From NCBI GenBank assembly GCA_011620595.1, contig WOYX01000007.1, positions 4,989 through 68,236 of the forward strand: DNA of 63,248 nt, written 5' to 3'. Positions within the stretch are counted from its first letter, which is position 1. Every line of letters begins with the position of its first letter. The notes beneath the pieces are model-generated. The model was not told where the DNA came from, searched no databases, and saw only the letters and a list, made by a program, of their open reading frames with translations. The DNA comes from Bacteroidales bacterium (GTDB taxonomy: Bacteria; Bacteroidota; Bacteroidia; Bacteroidales; VadinHA17). This document shows positions 18,680 through 48,346 of this stretch, in pieces. The translations under genes and the position numbers were made by a program.

Positions 18680-20542
18680 ATGAATACAGAATTTGTGACC
18701 TTTCTGCAGAAAGTTGAGCTTTTCAGGAACCTTAGTGATGACGAATTCAATGAGCTTGCCAGGCGTCTCGTTAAAAAGTCATTTGGCAAGGGTGATTACC
18801 TATTCAGGGAAAACGGTCCCCGTGAAGGAATATTTATAATTTTTGACGGTGAGGTGGAGCTTTTTAAGACCAATCCGTACGGTGAGGAAGTCAGGCTCGC
18901 CATCTTCGGGGAGGGCGATTTCCTGGGCGAGGGACCATGGGTCGATGACTCACCCCATTCGACCTCGGCGCGGGCAGTGATTTCAACAACGGTACTCTCC
19001 GTGCACCTCGACTTTTTCAATGTCAGTGCAGCCACTACCCTGAAGGTCTTCTCCAATATTGCCAGGGTGATCTCCAGGAGGATGAGAAACGCCAACTCCC
19101 GGATGATCACTCCTGCAGCACAGTACGAATCGGGAAAGACGCGCCGCGAACATGACCTGCTGGGAGAGCGGGAGGTGCCCTTTGACAGCTACTACGGGGT
19201 CCAGACACTCAGGGCCATCGAGAACTTCGACATTTCGGAGGTCACACTAACCTCAGTACCCCATCTCATAGAAGCTCTGGCCATGGTCAAGGAGGCAGCC
19301 GCAGAAGCAAACTGCAGTCTCGGCCTGCTGGATGATAAGATCAGGGATGCCATTGTAAGAGCCTGTCATGAGATAAAAAACGGCATGCATCACAACCATT
19401 TTATGGTTGATATGATCCAGGGAGGGGCAGGCACCTCCACCAACATGAATGCCAACGAGGTGATAGCCAACCGGGCACTCGAGATCCTCGGCTATGACAA
19501 AGGCGACTATCAGCATTGCCATCCGAATAACCATGTCAACCTTTCACAGTCGACAAACGATGCCTACCCCACCGCCGTAAAAATAGCCCTGATTCATTCC
19601 AACAAAAAGCTGGTGGAGGTGCTTGAGACACTGATAACATCATTCAGCAACAAGGCAAAGGAGTTCTCACATGTGATCAAGATGGGCAGAACACAGTTGC
19701 AGGACGCCGTACCCATGACCCTCGGCCAGGAGTTCGAAGCCTATGCCGTAACACTGGGTGAAGAGGTGGAACGACTGAACCAGAACGCCTGCCTCTTCCT
19801 CGAGGTCAATATGGGTGCAACAGCTATCGGGACTGGTATCAACTCCGCTCCGGGTTACTCGGAGCTGGTAATAGAATATCTGAGGAAAATATCAGGACTG
19901 GACCTGGTTCTTGCCTCCAACCTTGTCGAAGCTACCCAGGATACCGGCGCCTTCGTCATGTACTCCTCGGCAGTGAAGCGGCTGGCTGTGAAACTCTCCA
20001 AGATATGCAATGACCTGAGGCTGCTCTCTTCCGGACCTCGCACGGGAATCAACGAGATCAACCTGCCTCCCATGCAGCCCGGATCCTCAATAATGCCTGG
20101 CAAGGTCAATCCCGTCATCCCCGAGGTGGTCAACCAGATAGCTTTCAAGGTGATCGGCAATGATCTGACAGTCACCCTGGCCGCCGAGGCGGGACAGCTG
20201 GAACTTAATGTCTTTGAACCTGTGATGGTGCAGAGTATCTTTGAGTCAATCGAGATATTGAGCAACGGGATGACCACCCTCAAAAACCGTTGCATAGAAG
20301 GCATAACAGCCAATGAAGAACGTTGCAGAACCATGGTATATGACAGCATAGGACTGATCACGGCGCTGGTTCCCTTCATAGGCTACGATGCCTCAAACCA
20401 ACTCGCCACCGAAGCCCTGACCAGCGACAGGAGCGTGTACGACCTGGTGCTCGAAAAGGGACTGCTGACAAGGGCGCAGGTCGATCAGATACTGGCACCG
20501 GAAAATATGATCAAGCCGCGAAAGATGAAACTTGACAGCTGA
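18680..20542 (+). CDS. Cyclic-nucleotide-binding domain fused to aspartate ammonia-lyase
   Basis: Residues 1-140 form a CAP_ED (cNMP-binding) domain and residues about 155-620 a full aspartase, which converts L-aspartate to fumarate and ammonia. The aspartase half has the fumarase/aspartase signature GSSIMPGKVNP near residue 470. The sensor half has the phosphate-binding-cassette pattern FLGEG...SPHSTSARA, but the arginine that normally holds the cyclic phosphate is replaced by His. The enzyme could be allosterically controlled by a small ligand, though perhaps not by classical cAMP. The gene stands alone, 101 bases after a divergent AlkD-like gene. Confidence 0.9.
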   Translation: MNTEFVTFLQKVELFRNLSDDEFNELARRLVKKSFGKGDYLFRENGPREGIFIIFDGEVELFKTNPYGEEVRLAIFGEGDFLGEGPWVDDSPHSTSARAVISTTVLSVHLDFFNVSAATTLKVFSNIARVISRRMRNANSRMITPAAQYESGKTRREHDLLGEREVPFDSYYGVQTLRAIENFDISEVTLTSVPHLIEALAMVKEAAAEANCSLGLLDDKIRDAIVRACHEIKNGMHHNHFMVDMIQGGAGTSTNMNANEVIANRALEILGYDKGDYQHCHPNNHVNLSQSTNDAYPTAVKIALIHSNKKLVEVLETLITSFSNKAKEFSHVIKMGRTQLQDAVPMTLGQEFEAYAVTLGEEVERLNQNACLFLEVNMGATAIGTGINSAPGYSELVIEYLRKISGLDLVLASNLVEATQDTGAFVMYSSAVKRLAVKLSKICNDLRLLSSGPRTGINEINLPPMQPGSSIMPGKVNPVIPEVVNQIAFKVIGNDLTVTLAAEAGQLELNVFEPVMVQSIFESIEILSNGMTTLKNRCIEGITANEERCRTMVYDSIGLITALVPFIGYDASNQLATEALTSDRSVYDLVLEKGLLTRAQVDQILAPENMIKPRKMKLDS

Positions 20543-20629: not shown

Positions 20630-22375
20630 TCAGCCGGAAGTATCAGACAGGTCTTTTGGGTAGTCAGAGATAAGTTTCACCAGTTCATTAATCTTTTCGT
20701 CCCGGTTTTTGAACCCCACATCCACTACCACCGGACTGTCTATCTCAAACCTGGATATAACACTGTCAACGAGACTGTTGCGAACGGCAATGACAATCAC
20801 CGGCACAGATGCCTGCAGCAGTTCGGTGATCCTGGGGCTCCATCCCTCTCCTCTGAGCTCCAGCGGGCCCGCCTCATCAATAATGACCACGACGCTATTC
20901 ATGTTACGCTCGGGGTCAAGAGCGTCAAGTCCTGCCCGGTACCCCTCGTCACTCATGGAGAACCGATCCACGCCAACGGTTACGGGGCCTGTGAGCCGTA
21001 GGAAAGGTTTCCGTGCATCGGATGAGATGTCAAGTATGTCATACCCTGTGGTGGCTTCACCCTCAACGGCTCGCAGTGCCAGAATGCCGCCCACAGCTAC
21101 TCCCCGGCCCTTAAGTATCTCTGTCAGCTCACTCAGGAACGCGGTCTTGCCCTCAGCGATAGCTCCGGTGACAATTACCACTCTCTTCTTTATATCCCGG
21201 CCAGCCCTGACCTCTGCAAGCCGCTTCTCAACACGGGTTATCATACGGTTAAGAATATCGACAGGGTTCTTCATCGCACTCCTGAGATCAGGCATGTCAG
21301 CTATCATCGTAGGCAGGCTGGCAGCTGCCAGCTCCAGGGCTAGGGGCAGCTGCCTGAAGTGACTGCGGCTGAAGAAGTTGCGTATCTTCGGGTTGTAAAG
21401 CTCGGTACCCAGGGCCGAAAAACCGACGATGATTATCACTGCACGGAAGTTCATCTGTATGCCGATCAATATCGCCTCCGTCATGTTGTTCCCACCGGGC
21501 TGGAGAGCACTGAAGGCAAGGGCTGAAAGCATGGTAATAATAACAAAGGTGACCCAGAATCCCGGTTTCGACAGTTGTCTCATGGCCCGGTTGTAACGCA
21601 GCGCGAGAAGCGTGATGACCGGTATCACAGCGACAACCCACCAGTACCATTTCGTGATGCTGACCACAACCAGCAAACAGGCAATGAGCACTACATCCGC
21701 TGCCAGCCACCCCAGGGAGTAGTCGAATGACCGATCCTCCCGCTTAGATGATGAGTTGATGACAGCAGGCCCGGCATCAACCTCTGCCGGCGGCATGGAT
21801 ACCAGCCTCCGGCCGGTGATAATCCCCACCACTGCAGTGATAACGCCAAAGAGAACATATACCGACAGCAACAGCAACAGCGGCGCCCAGAAGGCATCGA
21901 ACTGCAGGTTCAGCTGCCGCGCTGCATAGTCGGTTATGCTCGCATAGATATCAACCAGCTTGCCGCCGTAAAAGATGATCATGTTAAACACTTTCTGGAA
22001 TAGGTTCCACGACATGGCCAGCATTGATCCGATGATAAACCCGAGATAGGTTCTCCCAAACAGCCTTACCGATGCCTCCAGGAACAGTGACTCCATGATT
22101 ATGGCAATCATCGGCCCGAAGATGATGGCGCTGGGAGACATCGTCTTCATGAGGGCACATATCACCCCTGCTCTCCAGAACAGACCCCGATCCCGCCACT
22201 TGTAACTCAACGAGATCAGTATCACCAGCGCTATGGCTGTGAGCAGGTTACCGCTGAAAGGGACACGCAGGTTATGCAGGAAACTGCCGACCACGATCTC
22301 GGCAGCAGCCCATATCGTTCCTATGATGGATGCCTTGATCCACTTTTCGCTGATGATAGCTGTGCCCTTATTCAA
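20630..22375 (-). CDS. Membrane ECF-transporter-like protein fused to a THEP1-type NTPase
   Basis: The 581-residue protein has three parts. Residues 1-190 contain five or six membrane segments and look like an ECF substrate-specificity (S) component. Residues 220-370 contain four more segments and an EcfT-like cytoplasmic stretch (QMNFRAVIIIVGFSALG, then LELAAASLPTMI). Residues 395-575 are a nucleoside-triphosphatase of the THEP1 family with P-loop GAIAEGKT (404-411) and Walker B VVVIIDEAGPLE (495-506). This joins uptake and NTPase functions in one chain without a standard ABC ATPase. The substrate is unknown; the S and T assignments are weaker than the NTPase assignment. Confidence 0.75.
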   Translation of the reverse strand: MNKGTAIISEKWIKASIIGTIWAAAEIVVGSFLHNLRVPFSGNLLTAIALVILISLSYKWRDRGLFWRAGVICALMKTMSPSAIIFGPMIAIIMESLFLEASVRLFGRTYLGFIIGSMLAMSWNLFQKVFNMIIFYGGKLVDIYASITDYAARQLNLQFDAFWAPLLLLLSVYVLFGVITAVVGIITGRRLVSMPPAEVDAGPAVINSSSKREDRSFDYSLGWLAADVVLIACLLVVVSITKWYWWVVAVIPVITLLALRYNRAMRQLSKPGFWVTFVIITMLSALAFSALQPGGNNMTEAILIGIQMNFRAVIIIVGFSALGTELYNPKIRNFFSRSHFRQLPLALELAAASLPTMIADMPDLRSAMKNPVDILNRMITRVEKRLAEVRAGRDIKKRVVIVTGAIAEGKTAFLSELTEILKGRGVAVGGILALRAVEGEATTGYDILDISSDARKPFLRLTGPVTVGVDRFSMSDEGYRAGLDALDPERNMNSVVVIIDEAGPLELRGEGWSPRITELLQASVPVIVIAVRNSLVDSVISRFEIDSPVVVDVGFKNRDEKINELVKLISDYPKDLSDTSG

Positions 22376-22403: not shown

Positions 22404-23342
22404 TCAAAAGGGATCACACTCGCGGTAGGCTTCAATCACCCTTTTTGCTCCGTGCGGGCCTTTCAGGCTGCGGCCGTGCTCCATGCAGATCACCCCCCGG
22501 TAGTCTTTCTCAAGCAGGTGTTTAAAGATATTTTTATAGTTGATCTCCCCGGTGGTAGGCTCATTACGACCGGGGCTGTCCCCCACGTGGAAGGCGGCTA
22601 TCTCATCCCAGCAGGCATCGATGTTGGGTATCAGGTTGCCCTCGGTGATCTGCTGATGATAGAGGTCATCAACGATCTTCACGGCAGGACTGTTGACAGC
22701 CCTGCACACCTGGTAAGCCTGCGGCATCTGCGTGAGCCACAGGCCCGGGTGATCACGGAGGGTATTCAGCGGCTCGATGACGAGGGTCATCCCTTCAGGC
22801 TCGGTGAGCATGGCACAGTATCTCAGGTTCTCTATGACGTTTGCCAGCTGTATATCAGGGTGCAACCTCTCATCGTACCTCCCGGGAACCACCAGCGCCA
22901 TCTTGAACCCGGTCCTCTTCGCCACATCAATACCTTCCTCCATCTTCACGGTGAGAAAGTCGCGTACCTCCCTGTGGGGCAGGACAAACGAGCTCTTTGA
23001 GAAGTCGGCATGCAACACCCAGGGACCCATCATCAGTCCCAAACGCTGGATGGCGGTGGCGATGCGATCCTGCTCCGCCACCGGGCGCCCCGGCAGACCG
23101 TTGTCGAAGACAGCCCTGAAGCCCTTGTCCTGTATGAACTTGAGATTGTCAACCGGATCATCGCTGCCGCACAGCTCACGGAACATGCCCGGCGAAGGTG
23201 CGTAGGCCAGCCTGAAAGGCCTGTCAGCATCAGGTACCATGGCTGAACGGCTCCTGCCCCTGAGCAGGGCCGGGGCTGTAAACAGTGCTGCACCGGTGGC
23301 GGCAGCACCCCTGACAAAACTGCGTCTTGATCTCTCTTCCAT
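22404..23342 (-). CDS. Tat-exported sugar phosphate isomerase/epimerase-like TIM barrel
   Basis: The 312-residue protein is a member of the AP endonuclease 2/hydroxypyruvate isomerase-like TIM-barrel family. A twin-arginine signal (SRRSFVRG) leads residues 1-30. Metal-site glutamates are plausible in VIEPLN and at the C-terminal 'VICMEHG'. It precedes the ECF/THEP1 gene in the same direction and follows a Tat-exported Gfo/Idh oxidoreductase, a pairing common in Bacteroidetes sugar-oxidation modules. The sugar is unknown. Confidence 0.8.
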   Translation of the reverse strand: MEERSRRSFVRGAAATGAALFTAPALLRGRSRSAMVPDADRPFRLAYAPSPGMFRELCGSDDPVDNLKFIQDKGFRAVFDNGLPGRPVAEQDRIATAIQRLGLMMGPWVLHADFSKSSFVLPHREVRDFLTVKMEEGIDVAKRTGFKMALVVPGRYDERLHPDIQLANVIENLRYCAMLTEPEGMTLVIEPLNTLRDHPGLWLTQMPQAYQVCRAVNSPAVKIVDDLYHQQITEGNLIPNIDACWDEIAAFHVGDSPGRNEPTTGEINYKNIFKHLLEKDYRGVICMEHGRSLKGPHGAKRVIEAYRECDPF

Positions 23343-23440: not shown

Positions 23441-24769
23441 TTATTCACCCGGCACCGGGACACTCTTGCTTACGTCAACCGGACCCATCTCATATACCTT
23501 GGGCCCAAGCTTCAGATCGGAGTTCATCATCTCATCCCAGGTAACCTTCTTCCCGGTATAGGCCGAAATTCGGCCCATAATTCCTGCCATGGTCGAGACG
23601 GCAACGAATTCGGCCTCATTGAGTGGCTGGGCCGTGCGTATGGCAGTGACAAAATCGATGTGCTCCTGGTCATAGGGGCTCCTGATAAGCTGGTCAGTCA
23701 TCTGACCCTGCTCGTCAAGTTTGTAGCCGTCGTACTTCCAGAGTTCGTTCCCGGCAAGGTCCACGATGCTGTTCTGGCAGTTGCTGCTCCCCTCTGTGCC
23801 CTGTACCCATTCCGACACGTTGCCTTCGCACCCGTTTATCTGGCGGCACATGCTGTGAACATGGATGCCTCCGTCATAGATAAAGTCGGTGCTGAAGAAG
23901 TCGTACTGGTCTCCGGTGACACGACGGTGACGGGCACCGAAGCTGACGGCGGATACCGGTTTCTTGCCTGTAAACCAGTTGACAACATCTATGTTGTGCA
24001 CATGCTGCTCAACGATGTGATCGCCTGAGAGCCAGCACCAGTTAACCCAGTCGCGTATCATGTATTCCATCTCGGTCCATGACGGGTTGGGGTCACGGTA
24101 CCATAGCTGTCCCTGGTTCCAGTAGCAGTTTGCAGCCACGATATCGCCTATCATCCCCTCCTGCACCTTGCCCCAGGTGGCAACATAGTCATGCTGGTGA
24201 TGCCGCTGGGTTCCTGTCACGACACACAGCTCCATCCCCTTGGCCTTCTCCCCGGTTGCCATTATCTGCCTGACACCTGTGGGGTCAACGGCCACAGGCT
24301 TCTCCATGAAGACATGCTTGCCGGCAGTGACGGCAGCTTCGAAATGCAGAGGCCGGAAAAACGGTGGGGTGGCAAGAAGGATAATATCTACGCCGGAGTC
24401 GATCACCTTCTGGTAGGCGTCGAACCCGACAAAACAGTTCTCGTCAGCGATCTCCACCCCGTCATTCGCCAGGCGATTGCGACATGAAGTGACCCTGTCG
24501 GTAAAGACATCACCCAGTGCCGTGATGGTAAGGCTGGGCCCGGAATGAAGGAAGTTCAGGGCGGCACCCGTGCCCCTGCCGCCGCAGCCTATCAGCCCGG
24601 CCCTGAGGAGTGGCCCGTCAGGAGCAGCGTCAGGCATTACAGGAAGGATGACCTCCTTGCGCTTCCTTGAGGAGCATGAGGTGATGAGTGTCGGCACGAT
24701 TATCCCTGCTGCCCCGGCAGCGGCTGCCGTACCCAGGAAATTTCTTCTGGAAAGTGATGATTTTTTCAT
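23441..24769 (-). CDS. Tat-exported Gfo/Idh/MocA-family oxidoreductase
   Basis: The 442-residue protein opens with a twin-arginine signal (SRRNFLGTAAAAG), followed by a possible lipobox (ITSC), then a Rossmann fold with GLIGCGGRGTG (residues about 57-67). The FMEKPVAVDP motif (Lys as in the EKP signature) and the substrate-domain 'DGGIHVHSMCRQ' are present. Family members oxidise or reduce sugar rings with tightly bound NAD(H). Together with the downstream TIM-barrel protein it may interconvert 3-keto sugars in the periplasm. Confidence 0.9.
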   Translation of the reverse strand: MKKSSLSRRNFLGTAAAAGAAGIIVPTLITSCSSRKRKEVILPVMPDAAPDGPLLRAGLIGCGGRGTGAALNFLHSGPSLTITALGDVFTDRVTSCRNRLANDGVEIADENCFVGFDAYQKVIDSGVDIILLATPPFFRPLHFEAAVTAGKHVFMEKPVAVDPTGVRQIMATGEKAKGMELCVVTGTQRHHQHDYVATWGKVQEGMIGDIVAANCYWNQGQLWYRDPNPSWTEMEYMIRDWVNWCWLSGDHIVEQHVHNIDVVNWFTGKKPVSAVSFGARHRRVTGDQYDFFSTDFIYDGGIHVHSMCRQINGCEGNVSEWVQGTEGSSNCQNSIVDLAGNELWKYDGYKLDEQGQMTDQLIRSPYDQEHIDFVTAIRTAQPLNEAEFVAVSTMAGIMGRISAYTGKKVTWDEMMNSDLKLGPKVYEMGPVDVSKSVPVPGE

Positions 24770-24899: not shown

Positions 24900-24924
24900 C
24901 ACCCTCGGCCCTCTGCCGTCTGAC

Positions 24925-25059
24925 TGAAGACTATCAACTGCTTCCAGCCACCGAAGCCTTGGCGAAGACTGAAGACTGTCAACTGCTTCCAGCCACCGAA
25001 GCCTTGGCGAAGACTGAAGACTATCAACTGCTTCCAGCCACCGAAGTCTTAGCGAAGGT
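24925..25059. repeat. Three 45-base tandem repeats overlapping a gene end
   Basis: Copies lie at 24925-24969, 24970-25014 and 25015-25059; the first two differ at one position and the third diverges in its last 15 bases. The third copy runs into the tetraheme-SUMF1 gene and encodes its last residues (ATFAKTSVAGSS) and stop. Being 15 codons long, the unit keeps frame. The unit's last part relates to the 17-base repeat at 5149. Confidence 0.9.
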
Positions 25060-26505
25060 GGCCGACTGATTCCAATCCATCACCACCCTGAACCCCACAA
25101 AGAAACAGTCAGAGTACCACCATATGCTCTTAGGCATCTGAGGGTCGGTCTTCAGCCACTCTGCCGTACGTGTATAATCACGCGCAGCGCTCCTGACACC
25201 TCCTGCCCCGTCACGGTAGGAACCTCCCCTGATGACATGCTCATCTGTTCCATCATAGATATCAGAACAAAACTCCGCCACATTGCCGCTCATGTTCTTC
25301 AGTCCCCATGGGTTTGCCTTCACAAAAGAGGGCTCCTGTGTCTTGGACGGGCTGTTGCCCTGGTACACCACATATCTGCTGATCACGGCAGTGTCAGGTT
25401 TGCCTCCGAAGATACCACGTTTTTCAAACTTTCCCGGGTCACCCTCAAAGAAATAGGGCGTCACCGTCCCTGCCCGGCACGCATACTCCCACTCCGCCTC
25501 CGTGGGCAGGCGGTAGCCCTTGCCTGTGACCTGCGAGAGCCATCTGCAGTATGTCTCTGCGGCATGGTAACTCATTGAGATGGCCGGCCTCCTCCCCATA
25601 CCCCAGTTCTGATCAGGCTTGCCGTACGGAGGAGTGGCGCCGCTGACTGCATCCACATCTGCTGTCTTAAGCCGCGATCCCTCAGTATCTGTCGTTCTGC
25701 CCTCCGAGGCCGTCTGCCGGTAGAACTCCATGTACTCATCCCATGTCACCTCCACCTCGGCAATGAAGAAGGAGTCAACCGCCACCTCCCTGGTTGCCTC
25801 ATCAGCATCGCGCAACGGCTCATCATCGGGACTTCCCATTGTGAATGTGCCTCCGGAAATGGCGACCATCCTGAAGGTGACCCCTGATCCCGGTATCTGC
25901 TCTACAAAGTCATCAAAGGCTGTAACAGCCGCCGGGGAGGTGTAGAGAGTATCCTGTCCGCCCTGCGCCATGCCAAACCCTGTGTTGGTGCCGTGGAGAT
26001 AACCCTCGATATAATGTCCCGAATTAAGGTGGCAGCTTATGCACTGCAACGCCTCCCCCTTGTCGGTCATCTGCTTGTAGTAGAGATGCGCCTCGGAACC
26101 TTCGCGGGTCAGTGTTGCAGGGAAGAGATTCTCATGGCATCTGATGCATGATGAGTTATAAACATGCTCCGCAGCTCTCTCAAGGGTTGAAGCTGCCTCC
26201 CAGTTGAACTCGGTTGAGTCTTTGGTCCAGTGACTCCAGAGATCGCGCATTCCAGTCTTAGCCTTCTCAATAATATAACCCTCTCCCTTCGGCGGCAGAT
26301 GGCATTCTGCGCATCCTGTATGATAACCCGACTCCGTGGCATAGTGAACCCCCTGCTTCCAGCTGGCTGTAGCCTGCGGATGAACATGGCATATGGCACA
26401 GAAGTCGTTGGTCGATGTAGCTTCCACCGCCTTGCCCAGTCCTGCAAATACCAGTACACCCGCAACAAGACCGATGAAAAACCATATCCGGATTCTCTTC
26501 TTCAA
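25024..26505 (-). CDS. NapC/NrfH-like tetraheme cytochrome fused to a SUMF1 (FGE-like) domain
   Basis: The 493-residue protein has an N-terminal membrane anchor (residues 8-25) and four CxxCH heme sites at Cys36, Cys65, Cys120 and Cys155, in the pattern of quinol-oxidising NapC/NrfH cytochromes. From about residue 210 it continues as a formylglycine-generating-enzyme-like fold: FRMVAISGGTFTMGS, PTEAEWEYACRAGT, GNVAEFCSD and VIRGGSY. The redox cysteines expected after the RGGS motif in FGE are absent, so it should not make formylglycine. It may take electrons from quinol to a periplasmic reaction or partner at the SUMF1 fold. No nrfA is adjacent. Confidence 0.88.
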   Translation of the reverse strand: MKKRIRIWFFIGLVAGVLVFAGLGKAVEATSTNDFCAICHVHPQATASWKQGVHYATESGYHTGCAECHLPPKGEGYIIEKAKTGMRDLWSHWTKDSTEFNWEAASTLERAAEHVYNSSCIRCHENLFPATLTREGSEAHLYYKQMTDKGEALQCISCHLNSGHYIEGYLHGTNTGFGMAQGGQDTLYTSPAAVTAFDDFVEQIPGSGVTFRMVAISGGTFTMGSPDDEPLRDADEATREVAVDSFFIAEVEVTWDEYMEFYRQTASEGRTTDTEGSRLKTADVDAVSGATPPYGKPDQNWGMGRRPAISMSYHAAETYCRWLSQVTGKGYRLPTEAEWEYACRAGTVTPYFFEGDPGKFEKRGIFGGKPDTAVISRYVVYQGNSPSKTQEPSFVKANPWGLKNMSGNVAEFCSDIYDGTDEHVIRGGSYRDGAGGVRSAARDYTRTAEWLKTDPQMPKSIWWYSDCFFVGFRVVMDWNQSATFAKTSVAGSS

Positions 26506-26709: not shown

Positions 26710-28047
26710 ATGAGACGGACTATACTTGCATTTCTGCTTCTGCTGTTGATTATCCCTGCCGGTGCCCACCCCTGGAAGCCCCGTCATTATGTGATCATCG
26801 ACAGTGACGGAGGCATTGACGACCTGAAGGCGATATGCCTGCTGATGGCATCCCCGGACGTGAGGATACTCGCCATAACCGCTTCAGACGGTTATCAGAA
26901 GGCTCCTGCAGCATATGAAAAGATCAGGTCGATGACTGACGGCCTGTGGCATGAGGGTTTGCCTGTAGCAGAAGGTGAAGATGCCGTCAGACTCATAGAA
27001 GAGGTCCTCGCGGAAGAGACGACACCGGTGACTTTTATTGCCCTGGGACCGCTGCAGACTGTGTGGAGAGCAATGCAGCATTCAGAGATCTTCGCTGAAA
27101 AGGTGAAAAAGGTGTTATGGACCAACAGCGGGCTGCCCGGCAGAGACGGATTTAACTACACGGCAGCACCTGATGCCGCGGAAAAGGTAATGGCCGGATC
27201 CATCCCCGTTACAGTGACCGGCAGTGGAGGAGAGAGGTTTTATGATGAGACGCTGCTTGATGAGATAGGAAATATCCACAATCCCTATGCCACAAAAGTG
27301 AAAGATCTCATCAGCTCAATGCCTTCTCATTCATTTGTGTTCACAGCATTTGACGAGATGGCTCCGCTGCTCCTTCATTACCCCGGTCTCTTTAACTCCG
27401 CCGAAGCGGGTAAAGGGCCTCTGTACTGCTCCCCGGCCGACATCGGGGCACTGCGTAAGGCAACACTGAAAATACTAAGGGGAGAGACGGTGGACAGAAT
27501 GCAGGTGATCAAAAGAATGCCATCGGATACCTCTTTTTATAATCCTGACCTTCAGCCGTTCGTTACTGAAATACGCAACAGGTACGGCGAAGATGAGTGG
27601 ACATCGGGAGTGATAGGCAATGAACTGCACCGGCATCTTGGAGTCTATGCAATCATTGGCGTTAAAATGGGCATCAGGGCACGGGAGTATTTCTGCACCG
27701 GCGTTGATGAGATGACGGTGACCACCCACCCGGGCTCCATGCCGCCCCTGAGCTGCATGAATGACGGCATCCAGGTCAGCACGGGGGCAACACCCGGACA
27801 CGGGTTGCTGACAGTAAGCAGTGAAAAACCCTTTTTCGCAGCTGCTGACTTCACCTGCAAAGGAAAAACAATACGCATCTCACTGAAAAAAGAACTCGAA
27901 GAAAAAGTCTCCGCGGAACTGAAAGAGATAAATTTCATCTATGGCCTCGACAGCGACATCTACTGGGAACTGGTGAGAAAAAACTCCATTAAGTACTGGC
28001 TGCAGTTTGACAGACATGAAATATTTGATATCGCTGTCATTGACTGA
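26710..28047 (+). CDS. Exported nucleoside hydrolase-like protein with C-terminal FmdE-like domain
   Basis: I choose the ATG at 26710, which opens a clear signal peptide (residues 1-19); the longer frame back to 26230 overlaps the cytochrome gene on the other strand. Residues 27-280 are an inosine-uridine nucleoside hydrolase-like domain with the calcium-site aspartates Asp31, Asp33, Asp37 and Asp38. Residues about 296-410 match FmdE-like domains: GNELHRHLG (305-311), then MNDGIQVSTGATPGHG (350-365) with Cys349. FmdE domains are metal-binding and found near molybdenum/tungsten enzymes or iron transport. The joint role is unknown. Confidence 0.8.
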   Translation: MRRTILAFLLLLLIIPAGAHPWKPRHYVIIDSDGGIDDLKAICLLMASPDVRILAITASDGYQKAPAAYEKIRSMTDGLWHEGLPVAEGEDAVRLIEEVLAEETTPVTFIALGPLQTVWRAMQHSEIFAEKVKKVLWTNSGLPGRDGFNYTAAPDAAEKVMAGSIPVTVTGSGGERFYDETLLDEIGNIHNPYATKVKDLISSMPSHSFVFTAFDEMAPLLLHYPGLFNSAEAGKGPLYCSPADIGALRKATLKILRGETVDRMQVIKRMPSDTSFYNPDLQPFVTEIRNRYGEDEWTSGVIGNELHRHLGVYAIIGVKMGIRAREYFCTGVDEMTVTTHPGSMPPLSCMNDGIQVSTGATPGHGLLTVSSEKPFFAAADFTCKGKTIRISLKKELEEKVSAELKEINFIYGLDSDIYWELVRKNSIKYWLQFDRHEIFDIAVID

Positions 28048-45655: not shown

Positions 45656-46855
45656 TCAGAATGCCGATACGAATCCGGCACTGAGCTTGGCGTAGGGATC
45701 ACCAGAGAAGATGTATGTCCCTTCAACCGCCAGCCTCACGTTGCGGCGCAACAGGTATCCCAGGTTCATTGTGGCTGACTGATAGTCAAATGCATCAACC
45801 TGCGATTGCACAAGGTTTACCAGTCCGGTCAGAAACACTTTGCTCATATCTCCCTTAGGCGCATAGATAATTTCTGCAAACCCGCCGTGGGTTTTGACGT
45901 CAGTCATCATTATTTCACCTTCCGGAATAAGAAGCTCTGAATCGGTGCGCCACAGGTACTGCAGAGTGATCATCAGCCTGCCATCGATATCAATTGCAAG
46001 ATCGGGCCCGTACATCTTTATCTCACTGGTGTACTGATCAATGCCATTTTGTATGACCTCCTTTCCCGTATACCCGAAAACACCCAGGGAAACGCTCTTT
46101 CCGAGATCCTGGTTTATCCTCAGCATAAAATTCTTGTACTTATCCTTGTCAAAAAGGAATTCACCCCATGCCGGATCGAGGCCGCTGCCGTTTACTATCT
46201 CCCCCGCAATCGTCGTCCCCGTTTTGAATGATTTGTCAAACATTACACCACGGTCATACTTGAGATCGACGGATGAGTTTTCAGGCCTGAAAGCATAGAT
46301 CTTGTATGGTTCAAGCGTGAGCCGCAGTTCGTTCTTGTAAAGAGGGTCTGATACCGAGAATTGTCCTAGAAATAAATTGATGCCGGCATCAAGGAAATCA
46401 TTATATATAATGAAGGCATCCTCAAAACCGACCACAGATCCTCGTTCACTCATCAGGAAATAAAAGTAGTATGAAACCTTATCAGAAAGCTCGCCGCCTG
46501 AAAGTATCTTTGCCACAAAAGGGGAAGCGAAGTCAAATGTTCCCTCGTTCTCGAAATTCAGTGTTGCATATCCTTCCAGCCTGATTGCCAGGGGCAGCTC
46601 CCTGAAGAGCGAGAGCTTGTCATCACCCGTATTGATAAAATACCTGGGTGATTCATATTCAGTCATCCGGAAGCCGTTGCCGGCATATTCGTCGCCGAAG
46701 GCCTTGAGCCTGGGCGCCGATGGCGAGTGGCACACCTGGCAACTGATCTGGTACTTGCGGGCGAAGGCAGGAATGGCGTCTGCCTTCCTTGCCGGCATAA
46801 TCAGCAAAAACATGACAGCCAGGCTGATGACCCCGGTAAATGTTGACTTTTTCAT
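45656..46855 (-). CDS. Outer-membrane beta-barrel with an N-terminal CxxCH heme site
   Basis: The 399-residue protein has a signal peptide (cleavage near Ala27), one heme-binding motif CQVCH (Cys39-His43), and then a long run of alternating beta-strands ending in a terminal Phe, as in outer-membrane porins. A barrel with its own heme could carry electrons or bind a cytochrome across the outer membrane. It is followed upstream (same strand) by a pentaheme cytochrome gene, which makes an electron-transfer pair likely. It is not similar enough to MtrB or Omb proteins to name. Confidence 0.78.
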   Translation of the reverse strand: MKKSTFTGVISLAVMFLLIMPARKADAIPAFARKYQISCQVCHSPSAPRLKAFGDEYAGNGFRMTEYESPRYFINTGDDKLSLFRELPLAIRLEGYATLNFENEGTFDFASPFVAKILSGGELSDKVSYYFYFLMSERGSVVGFEDAFIIYNDFLDAGINLFLGQFSVSDPLYKNELRLTLEPYKIYAFRPENSSVDLKYDRGVMFDKSFKTGTTIAGEIVNGSGLDPAWGEFLFDKDKYKNFMLRINQDLGKSVSLGVFGYTGKEVIQNGIDQYTSEIKMYGPDLAIDIDGRLMITLQYLWRTDSELLIPEGEIMMTDVKTHGGFAEIIYAPKGDMSKVFLTGLVNLVQSQVDAFDYQSATMNLGYLLRRNVRLAVEGTYIFSGDPYAKLSAGFVSAF

Positions 46856-46969: not shown

Positions 46970-48346
46970 TCAGGGAAGAATTTCAACTTTTGTTGAATGG
47001 TCATTTACCACCAGTATCGCCGACTCATCTGAGGGAACCTTCAGATAATCGGCCACAGGCTTGACAAGCAGCTGGTAATTCAGTACGGCATGCACCGTCA
47101 TCTCCCCTGGGGCAGCCTCGTAAGGAATTCTGAATGTAAACTTTTCAACCTTTGTCTCCCTAGGTCCTATCCGGTAGTCGACTCCCTGCGAAAATGTGTT
47201 CCACTGCATTATCGTCATGTTTCCCTGCTCATCAAAGTAAGGCATGCGGAATATCCTGTTCCCAAAAGGAATACCGTCACGCTGAACACCCTTGAAGTCC
47301 TTGATTTTAAGAGGTATGCCCATATCCTGATAGGCAAGGTAATCACCTGAAATGGTGTATTCCTCCCCTTCAAATCCCTTCTTGTCGACGTTCAGATGAT
47401 ACTTGTTTCCCTTTGCATCGGTGGCCTCCACATCAAGCCATGCAATACGGTCCTCAACTGAACCCGTCGGGAATTTATGCCCGGTCTTCTGGTTGAACAA
47501 AGCCACCGTGAATACGATTGACTCTCCTGGCTCAGCAAGGCGTATGTCTGGTTCGATCCTGACCTCTATCGTGCCCCTTACCTTTCCCGGGTCATGGGCA
47601 CCGTGAAAGAGATGAAGACGGGCATCATCAACGGTTTTGCCCATGAGCGCCAGCTGATACGGGCCACCCTTCGGCATGTGGCAGTCCTGACAGCGCACAC
47701 CCTCCGCGGCATAGGGGCCCTCTTTCCACTCCATCTGGGTGCTCTTAACCCATATTCCATAAGGATTCTGTTCATTGTGACAGTTTCCGCAGAACTCGGT
47801 GGTCCGGTGGAAATCACTCTGTACAATTTTGTGCGCAGGTGACTCTATCTCAGGCAGACGTCCGCTGTACTTGGTCTGTCCGGGAACAATATAATAACTG
47901 AAGTTAAAGGGCGGATCAGTCTGGGCCCTCTGTGTCAGGTGACACACCTCGCAGGAGACCGACTCATTTGCCATGCTCTTTTCCTCAGGACGAGGCGGGG
48001 GAAGTGTGCCTCCCATGAAGGCAAGGGGAGCATGACAGCCGTTGCAACCGTCAACGGGACCCTTGAGTGAAGGATTGACCTCTGCATGTGGAACGGCAAG
48101 TTCAAAATACTCGATCTCGTCCCAGTGATGAGTGTAGGCCTGTGACATCATGGCCTGCGACCATTGTTCATAGATACCCGGATGACATGAACGGCACTTG
48201 AGCGCCGTCTCAAAATCCTTGTACGTGTACTTGCCCTTCAGGTCCTCCTGAGGAAGGGTTCTTATCAGTGTAAATGCTGTCAGTGCCAGCAATATTGCGG
48301 CCGGAACAACAGCCAGCAAAAAAAACGGAGTGATTTTAGGTCTCAT
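46970..48346 (-). CDS. Pentaheme cytochrome c, membrane-anchored
   Basis: The 458-residue protein has an N-terminal membrane segment (residues 8-28) and five CxxCH sites: Cys51, 101, 132, 186 and 219. The spacing resembles cytochrome c-554-type multiheme proteins. From about residue 240 a beta-sandwich-like region (TGHKFPTGSVEDRIAW) follows, as seen in large periplasmic cytochromes. It likely passes electrons from the inner membrane to a periplasmic or outer-membrane partner, such as the heme-tagged barrel downstream. Its natural electron acceptor is unknown. Confidence 0.88.
   Translation of the reverse strand: MRPKITPFFLLAVVPAAILLALTAFTLIRTLPQEDLKGKYTYKDFETALKCRSCHPGIYEQWSQAMMSQAYTHHWDEIEYFELAVPHAEVNPSLKGPVDGCNGCHAPLAFMGGTLPPPRPEEKSMANESVSCEVCHLTQRAQTDPPFNFSYYIVPGQTKYSGRLPEIESPAHKIVQSDFHRTTEFCGNCHNEQNPYGIWVKSTQMEWKEGPYAAEGVRCQDCHMPKGGPYQLALMGKTVDDARLHLFHGAHDPGKVRGTIEVRIEPDIRLAEPGESIVFTVALFNQKTGHKFPTGSVEDRIAWLDVEATDAKGNKYHLNVDKKGFEGEEYTISGDYLAYQDMGIPLKIKDFKGVQRDGIPFGNRIFRMPYFDEQGNMTIMQWNTFSQGVDYRIGPRETKVEKFTFRIPYEAAPGEMTVHAVLNYQLLVKPVADYLKVPSDESAILVVNDHSTKVEILP

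Follow-up and report, generated by a model that had tools for sequence, protein, structure and literature searches.

The genome of a Bacteroidales bacterium (VadinHA17) encodes, within the window analysed here (63,248 nucleotides of contig WOYX01000007.1), a protein in which a tetraheme cytochrome of the NapC/NrfH type and a domain of the SUMF1 family are joined in one polypeptide chain. This cytochrome-SUMF1 fusion is real and conserved as a single open reading frame (ORF), and it is part of a larger redox module consisting of a SUMF1 domain and an oxidoreductase of the Gfo/Idh/MocA family (hereinafter Gfo), of which we found no earlier description. In the reading that we consider best supported, at a probability of about 0.52, the fused protein would form the membrane terminus of a chain that oxidises sugars in the periplasm and runs through a flavin bound to the SUMF1 domain. 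The relevant features of the window are as follows.

25024..26505, minus strand: fused gene, tetraheme NapC/NrfH-type cytochrome and SUMF1-type domain (ORF, Pfam, hydropathy)
26437..26493, minus strand: predicted N-terminal membrane helix, residues 5-23 (hydropathy)
26011..26493, minus strand: NapC/NirT-type cytochrome domain, residues 5-165 (Pfam)
26386..26400, minus strand: heme site 1, CAICH followed by VH (CxxCH sequence motif)
26299..26313, minus strand: heme site 2, CAECH (CxxCH sequence motif)
26134..26148, minus strand: heme site 3, CIRCH (CxxCH sequence motif)
26029..26043, minus strand: heme site 4, CISCH (CxxCH sequence motif)
25168..25872, minus strand: SUMF1/FGE-type domain, residues 212-446, lacking the catalytic cysteine pair (Pfam, alignment)
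25633..25653, minus strand: DAVSGAT, residues 285-291, an exact ApbE consensus with Thr291 as the candidate FMN site (motif)
25117..25158, minus strand: WLKTDPQMPKSIWW, residues 450-463, signature of the SUMF1 clade (conservation)
24922..25057, no strand: 45-bp repeat in three tandem copies, overlapping the fused gene at its 3' end
23441..24769, minus strand: conserved partner gene, encoding a Gfo/Idh/MocA oxidoreductase with a Tat signal and a lipobox-like Cys (PF01408, neighbour clustering)
22404..23342, minus strand: xylose-isomerase-type TIM barrel, PF01261 (Pfam)

The fused gene codes for 493 amino acids from a TTG start, without an internal stop, and its last codons in the window are covered by the 45-bp repeat. 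A preliminary description of this DNA had proposed a membrane-anchored cytochrome with four heme sites continuing into an FGE-like fold that is devoid of the catalytic cysteines, so that electron supply would be joined to a fold normally used for the oxidation of thiols; the architecture stands, whereas electron supply to a thiol-oxidising fold is not supported. Pfam places PF03264 (Cytochrom_NNT) at residues 5-165 (E = 2.5e-26), ahead of PF03781 (FGE-sulfatase) at residues 212-446 (E = 2.2e-36), in the order originally described; the four CxxCH sites are found at residues 36, 65, 120 and 155; and the anchor corresponds to residues 5-23, the sole strong membrane helix predicted from hydropathy (mean 2.26, the best stretch beyond residue 40 reaching 0.81). 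Exactly four CxxCH motifs are present in each of the 73 fused proteins counted, and a frameshift or an artefactual joining of two genes is rejected because the fused frame is uninterrupted in every one of the 73; in the relatives collected across genomes, the two parts form one ORF and not separate proteins.

These 73 loci come from 78 that were fetched, 76 of which gave a match of the fused type; the duplicates L035 and L040 were left out, as was L071, which encodes a PSCyt1 protein. Two further loci (L198 and L275), in which gene calling missed the fused gene, stand outside every count; in both, the fused frame is open and a frame with the Tat and EKP motifs follows directly on the same strand. 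At E<=1e-60, the fused gene had a match in 53 of the 393 genomes searched from the order, the source genome included, and in 3 of 394 genomes across the phylum (the source genome and two others); it is also present in a candidate KSB1 genome (L043). Substantial matches were obtained in 18 of the 21 other genomes of the genus (15 full length and 3 split over contigs), the remainder being one genome with a trace match and two, 71% and 68% complete, with none. Phylogenetic analysis of 141 SUMF1 domains placed the 73 fused forms on one side of a single branch (SH-aLRT 100), with SUMF1 domains lacking NapC as the sister group of this clade, and set the fused forms together with 60 relatives apart from eight control SUMF1 domains (98). 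A viral origin was considered and rejected: the best 79 of 161 relatives from viral contigs match only from query residue 187, that is, on the SUMF1 side.

Judging by its heme part, the fused protein is a member of PF03264, albeit not a typical one, given that heme site 1 reads CxxCHxH in 73/73 fused proteins and CxxCHxM in seven canonical NrfH-like paralogs, one of them from the same genome (L002). Against the model of NrfH sensu stricto (TIGR03153), the fused protein scores 67.1 bits, below the curated cut-off of 134.2. Nevertheless, K81 and D88, each at least 95% conserved among the fused proteins, align, in a weak match (E = 0.016), with a lysine and an aspartate of Desulfovibrio vulgaris NrfH (2j7a) that we take to be its quinol-binding site. 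Another multiheme cytochrome, with five CxxCH motifs and weak similarity to ExtKL (43.4 bits, cut-off 250), is encoded elsewhere in the window (46970-48346, minus strand), adjoining an ORF with a single CxxCH (45656-46855).

The SUMF1 domain, by contrast with FGE, carries no cysteine pair. As the preliminary description had noted for the one protein, the catalytic cysteines are missing: the FGE pattern GG[SA].{1,8}C....C is absent from 73/73 fused proteins and 60/60 relatives, and no cysteine occupies the catalytic positions in a profile alignment with a solved FGE. Furthermore, no histidine from the SUMF1 part appears among the invariant or near-invariant residues, many of which, in their invariant set, are aromatic or acidic, and all 73 fused proteins contain the signature DP[QN].P.S. 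With both the cysteine pair and a conserved histidine gone, FGE-like or EgtB-like catalysis is disfavoured, and the idea of a thiol-oxidising fold supplied with electrons is further at odds with the identity of the partner protein, a Gfo/Idh/MocA oxidoreductase.

This partner emerged from the clustering of neighbouring genes, a check that the preliminary description had proposed: position +1 is occupied by one family, Gfo/Idh/MocA, encoded on the strand of the fused gene in 68 of the 73 fused loci. The intergenic gap has a median of 39 bp and is at most 60 bp in 48 of the 68, as compared to 254 bp in the window, where the 45-bp repeat array is located. Among the other loci, L268 has Gfo at +1 in the opposite orientation, Gfo is cut by the contig end in L043 (55-62% identity among the matches listed), the contig ends at that point in L042, and L207 and L265 have other genes at +1, although the genome of L207 holds a second fused locus with Gfo (L208). 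At E<=1e-5, no Gfo was found in 20 control SUMF1 loci outside the clade, which come from relatives of the same order, some on contigs of only 4.3 kb. The source genome yields only 8 matches to PF01408 (7 above the cut-off), so the probability of chance adjacency is small. The mirror-tree correlation between SUMF1 and Gfo is 0.36 for all 68 pairs and 0.64 once the outlier Gfo of L269 is removed; when paralogs were swapped, the actual pairing was better in three of six comparisons, about equal in two and worse in one.

The Gfo partners contain the twin-arginine motif RR.F in 68 of 68 cases and, by a simple pattern, a lipobox in 57 of 68, with C32 at least 90% conserved; G61, E156, K157, P158 and H251 are invariant and G63 and G66 nearly so. 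The protein in the window, a PF01408 match, accordingly retains the Rossmann glycines and the EKP motif (156-158). Similarity to characterised families lies far under the curated cut-offs; in particular, we do not assign this protein to the glycoside 3-dehydrogenase family of BT_2158 because its score of 31.9 bits falls far short of the cut-off, 750. The Gfo partners of NapC-fused and of solitary SUMF1 domains differ at fixed sites, for example, M237, N243, F292 and Q310, possibly a reflection of the substrate or the partner.

Within four genes of the fused gene, a TIM barrel is encoded in 39 of the 73 loci, ThuA in 13 and a 3-keto-disaccharide hydrolase in 3, with at least one of these families, identified from a scan of one representative for each cluster, in 51 loci; at E<=1e-8, none of the three had a match in the 20 control loci. 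All three families are tied to 3-keto-sugar routes. Other genes of the window include a divergently oriented one for a nucleoside-hydrolase-like protein with an FmdE domain (26719-28047, plus strand), the cluster of which is represented in 18 of the 78 collected loci; one for a 581-residue protein that is hydrophobic in its N-terminal part and has NTPase_1 as its C-terminal domain (20630-22375, minus strand); and a single ORF in which a cyclic-nucleotide-binding domain precedes an aspartate ammonia-lyase (18680-20542, plus strand).

The association of SUMF1 with Gfo extends beyond the fused proteins. A contig search found at least 585 relatives, of which the best 80 were kept; 70 loci (L045-L114) lack NapC, and a SUMF1 ORF was called in 60 of these, the other 10 being dropped because the ORF caller picked other frames. 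Gfo follows at +1 on the same strand in 36 of the 60 and lies within two genes in 6 more; 16 have no Gfo, and in 2 the contig ends at that point. CxxCH motifs are found in ten of these SUMF1 proteins, all of which carry PSCyt1 domains (L058, L059, L062, L071, L079, L089, L090, L098, L106 and L113), in two stretches in eight of them and in one in L089 and L098; these proteins are mostly from Verrucomicrobiota, and Gfo is adjacent in three of the ten. Another protein with CxxCH is encoded within four genes in only 6 of the 60 solitary SUMF1 loci, hence the module does not universally include hemes. To judge from the gene content of these loci, the SUMF1-Gfo pair is widespread and its hemes are optional, and cytochromes of unrelated types (NapC and PSCyt1) have been added to SUMF1 in at least two ways.

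A possible role for the SUMF1 domain is suggested by a short motif. According to PMC12052999, ApbE targets contain D-x-x-[S/T]-G-A-[S/T], with FMN attached to the last residue, and replacement of the Gly by Ala or of the Ala by Val roughly halves flavinylation, an effect relevant to the proline variant of the motif described below. Residues 285-291 of the fused protein, DAVSGAT, match this consensus exactly, as do the corresponding motifs of 27 of the 73 fused proteins and 8 of the 60 relatives, against a background of 2 exact matches in 1352 proteins of at least 200 amino acids. Across the 73 fused proteins, the Asp, Gly and Thr are invariant; place 4 is Ser or Thr in 69 and another residue in 4; and place 6 is occupied by Ala in 31 proteins and by Pro in the other 42. 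Among the 60 relatives, the commonest non-exact form is D-A-V-[ST]-[RK]-P-[TS]. In the profile alignment, the equivalent segment of FGE (DAVVPEAPWW) also starts with D-A-V, and the motif may thus be partly inherited.

The distribution of ApbE is less straightforward. A gene for ApbE (PF02424, one representative scanned) is present in 22 of the 60 relative loci and in 4 relative loci without a called SUMF1 ORF; eight ApbE queries gave no match in either the fused or the control loci. In the 22 ApbE-adjacent loci, the SUMF1 motif reads [STI][RKHS]P[TS] rather than GA[TS] and is never exact, and none of the eight solitary loci with an exact motif has an adjacent ApbE (Fisher test for adjacency against motif, p = 0.076 for the loose and 0.022 for the exact motif); the ApbE of the locus could serve a protein other than SUMF1. 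The source genome encodes one ApbE (C25), beside an ORF that looks NqrF-like by eye, and ApbE was found in 48 of 49 fused-gene genomes searched, the exception being G003 (92% complete). For the solitary relatives, 25 of the 60 genomes, those of Bacteroidota and Rhodothermota, were chosen for whole-genome searches, which detected ApbE in 25, FMN_bind in 11 and DUF2271 in 5; searching for the flavinylation motif itself with a DNA pattern proved too noisy at this scale. FMN_bind is present in all eight genomes in which the motif ends in AT (six exact) and absent from 14 of the 17 with other motifs (Fisher p = 1.5e-4, uncorrected for kinship, with both motif type and FMN_bind following taxonomy); 10 of these 14 also lack DUF2271.

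A tree of ApbE (72 rows) was built from the 26 neighbouring ApbEs, the one from the source genome, 20 from the 49 fused-gene genomes and, from the 25 solitary-SUMF1 genomes, the 30 of 45 matches for which a locus was given. Of the neighbouring ApbEs, 24 form one clade with a single unlinked row (100/99), and the other two, from Pedobacter, group with four unlinked rows in a small clade (100/99), all six rows being from genomes with the motif DA[VL]TRPT. A larger clade unites the ApbE of the source genome, those of 5 of the 6 exact-motif genomes and of 21 of 21 fused-gene genomes, the small Pedobacter-containing clade and two ApbEs from genomes with R/K-P motifs; the split is not a clean one, for these last two ApbEs and the small clade fall within the larger clade, and the ApbE of the exact-motif genome G826 belongs to another clade, the third, with 11 members. 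Two genomes, Adhaeribacter (G817) and G823, have no ApbE other than that of the SUMF1-Gfo locus, and in neither was FMN_bind or DUF2271 found. Our reading of these patterns is that the SUMF1 loop would keep the standard motif where the ApbE also serves Nqr-type substrates and that loop and ApbE would have drifted together where the ApbE need not do so.

The proposed chain builds on what can be read from sequences, namely, the fusion, the heme sites, the NrfH-like Lys/Asp pair, the loss of the FGE cysteines, the Gfo partner with its Tat signal and the exact flavinylation motif; from these, we infer the attachment of the flavin, the direction of electron flow, the retention of NAD(P), the type of quinone and the involvement of a sugar. 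The adjoining Gfo, exported via Tat and probably lipid-anchored, would oxidise a sugar or glycoside, perhaps at C3, using NAD(P) tightly bound to the enzyme. The hydride would then pass to FMN, attached covalently by ApbE to Thr291 of the SUMF1 domain, which, having lost the FGE chemistry, would have become a flavin carrier and docking surface. Finally, single electrons would travel through the four hemes and, at the NapC/NrfH quinone site, to menaquinone. Under this scheme, the electrons may flow opposite to the direction given in the preliminary description, resulting in quinone reduction. We found no precedent for hydride transfer from a Gfo protein to a flavin on a partner.

The flow may instead be outward because proteins of the NapC/NrfH type usually oxidise quinol: menaquinol would be oxidised by the NapC part, and the SUMF1 domain would pass the electrons to Gfo for the reduction of a keto-sugar or a similar compound. 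This is unlikely in our estimate, despite the architecture and the NrfH-like Lys/Asp pair that are compatible with the usual direction of the family; the 3-keto-sugar-type neighbours suggest oxidation, and sugar oxidation should be downhill with menaquinone and uphill with free NAD, although neither argument is decisive. SUMF1 and C-type-lectin folds commonly bind ligands, and the SUMF1 domain could be a docking or carbohydrate-binding module without a cofactor, the hemes being reached directly or via a free carrier. The many invariant aromatic and acidic residues and the non-canonical motif in numerous members fit such a module, but an exact or near-exact flavinylation motif at one fixed column, the ApbE neighbours, the correspondence of motif type with FMN_bind and the unusual nature of hydride transfer to heme without a flavin make it rather doubtful.

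Far less probable are the readings that give the SUMF1 domain a modifying activity or no role. PvdO and FGE are the closest solved structures by sequence, and an active FGE-, EgtB- or PvdO-like domain could act on Gfo or some other protein of the periplasm, the hemes accepting the electrons; since none of the 133 proteins has the FGE cysteine pair and no histidine is conserved for non-heme iron, we deem this very improbable. That the protein is simply a quinol dehydrogenase of the NrfH type serving a nitrite reductase, its tail being irrelevant, has in its favour the match to PF03264 and is the least credible of the alternatives: separate CxxCHxM NrfH-like genes exist in the source genome and its relatives, six others of these canonical genes adjoin a four-CxxCH ORF that is NrfA-like by eye, and clustering of neighbours in the collected loci revealed no NrfA-like gene recurring beside the fused gene, so that a role as the partner of NrfA is probably not to be expected.

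Each component of the proposed chain, in which the fused protein would deliver electrons from sugar oxidation to the quinone pool, resembles a known system and departs from it. The fused protein shares with NrfH, NapC and CymA (PF03264) a single N-terminal helix, four CxxCH sites and the Lys and Asp aligned with D. vulgaris NrfH, and differs from them in the CxxCHxH at heme 1, the SUMF1 domain and the Gfo partner. With FGE and PvdO (PF03781) it has in common the domain family and, in FGE, the DAV-type loop, but it lacks the cysteine pair and carries the DPQ.P.S signature and the flavinylation-type motif. The exact motif, the predicted extracytosolic location and the presence of ApbE in sister loci recall ApbE-flavinylated carriers (FMN_bind, DUF2271, DUF3570), in which, unlike here, the site is not in a SUMF1 domain. 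The Gfo partner resembles glycoside 3-dehydrogenases (the BT_2158 family, DgpA) in fold, in weak matches and in some neighbours of the 3-keto-sugar type. The PSCyt1-SUMF1 proteins of Verrucomicrobiota and Planctomycetota (for example, L071 and L079) belong to the same SUMF1 clade, with an N-terminal cytochrome and Gfo adjacent in some cases, but their cytochrome domains are unrelated to NapC and point to a separate fusion event. In the main text of a survey of flavinylation (PMC8238504, eLife 2021), a word search did not find Gfo, FGE, formylglycine, sulfatase, Planctomycet or NapC, and our searches of open-licence papers yielded no description of a NapC-SUMF1 fusion or a SUMF1-Gfo pair. With odds that we put somewhat above even, this clade of SUMF1 folds, spread over several phyla, would be a new class of ApbE-flavinylated carriers for exported Gfo/Idh/MocA dehydrogenases, to which two unrelated kinds of cytochromes have been fused so as to wire sugar oxidation into respiration, often with an ApbE of its own and a shifted motif.

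Exported oxidoreductases of the Gfo/Idh/MocA family are a common feature of Bacteroidota, Planctomycetota and Verrucomicrobiota, and, to our knowledge, the route by which their bound NAD(P) is re-oxidised outside the cytoplasm is not clear. If the reading favoured here is true, the fused gene and its Gfo partner offer a concrete, testable route for this re-oxidation, some ApbE genes without a known substrate would acquire one, and SUMF1, a cysteine-oxidising fold, would have been converted to an electron carrier. Conceivably, the cytochrome-SUMF1 protein may be the missing wire that takes electrons from extracytoplasmic sugars to the respiratory chain.
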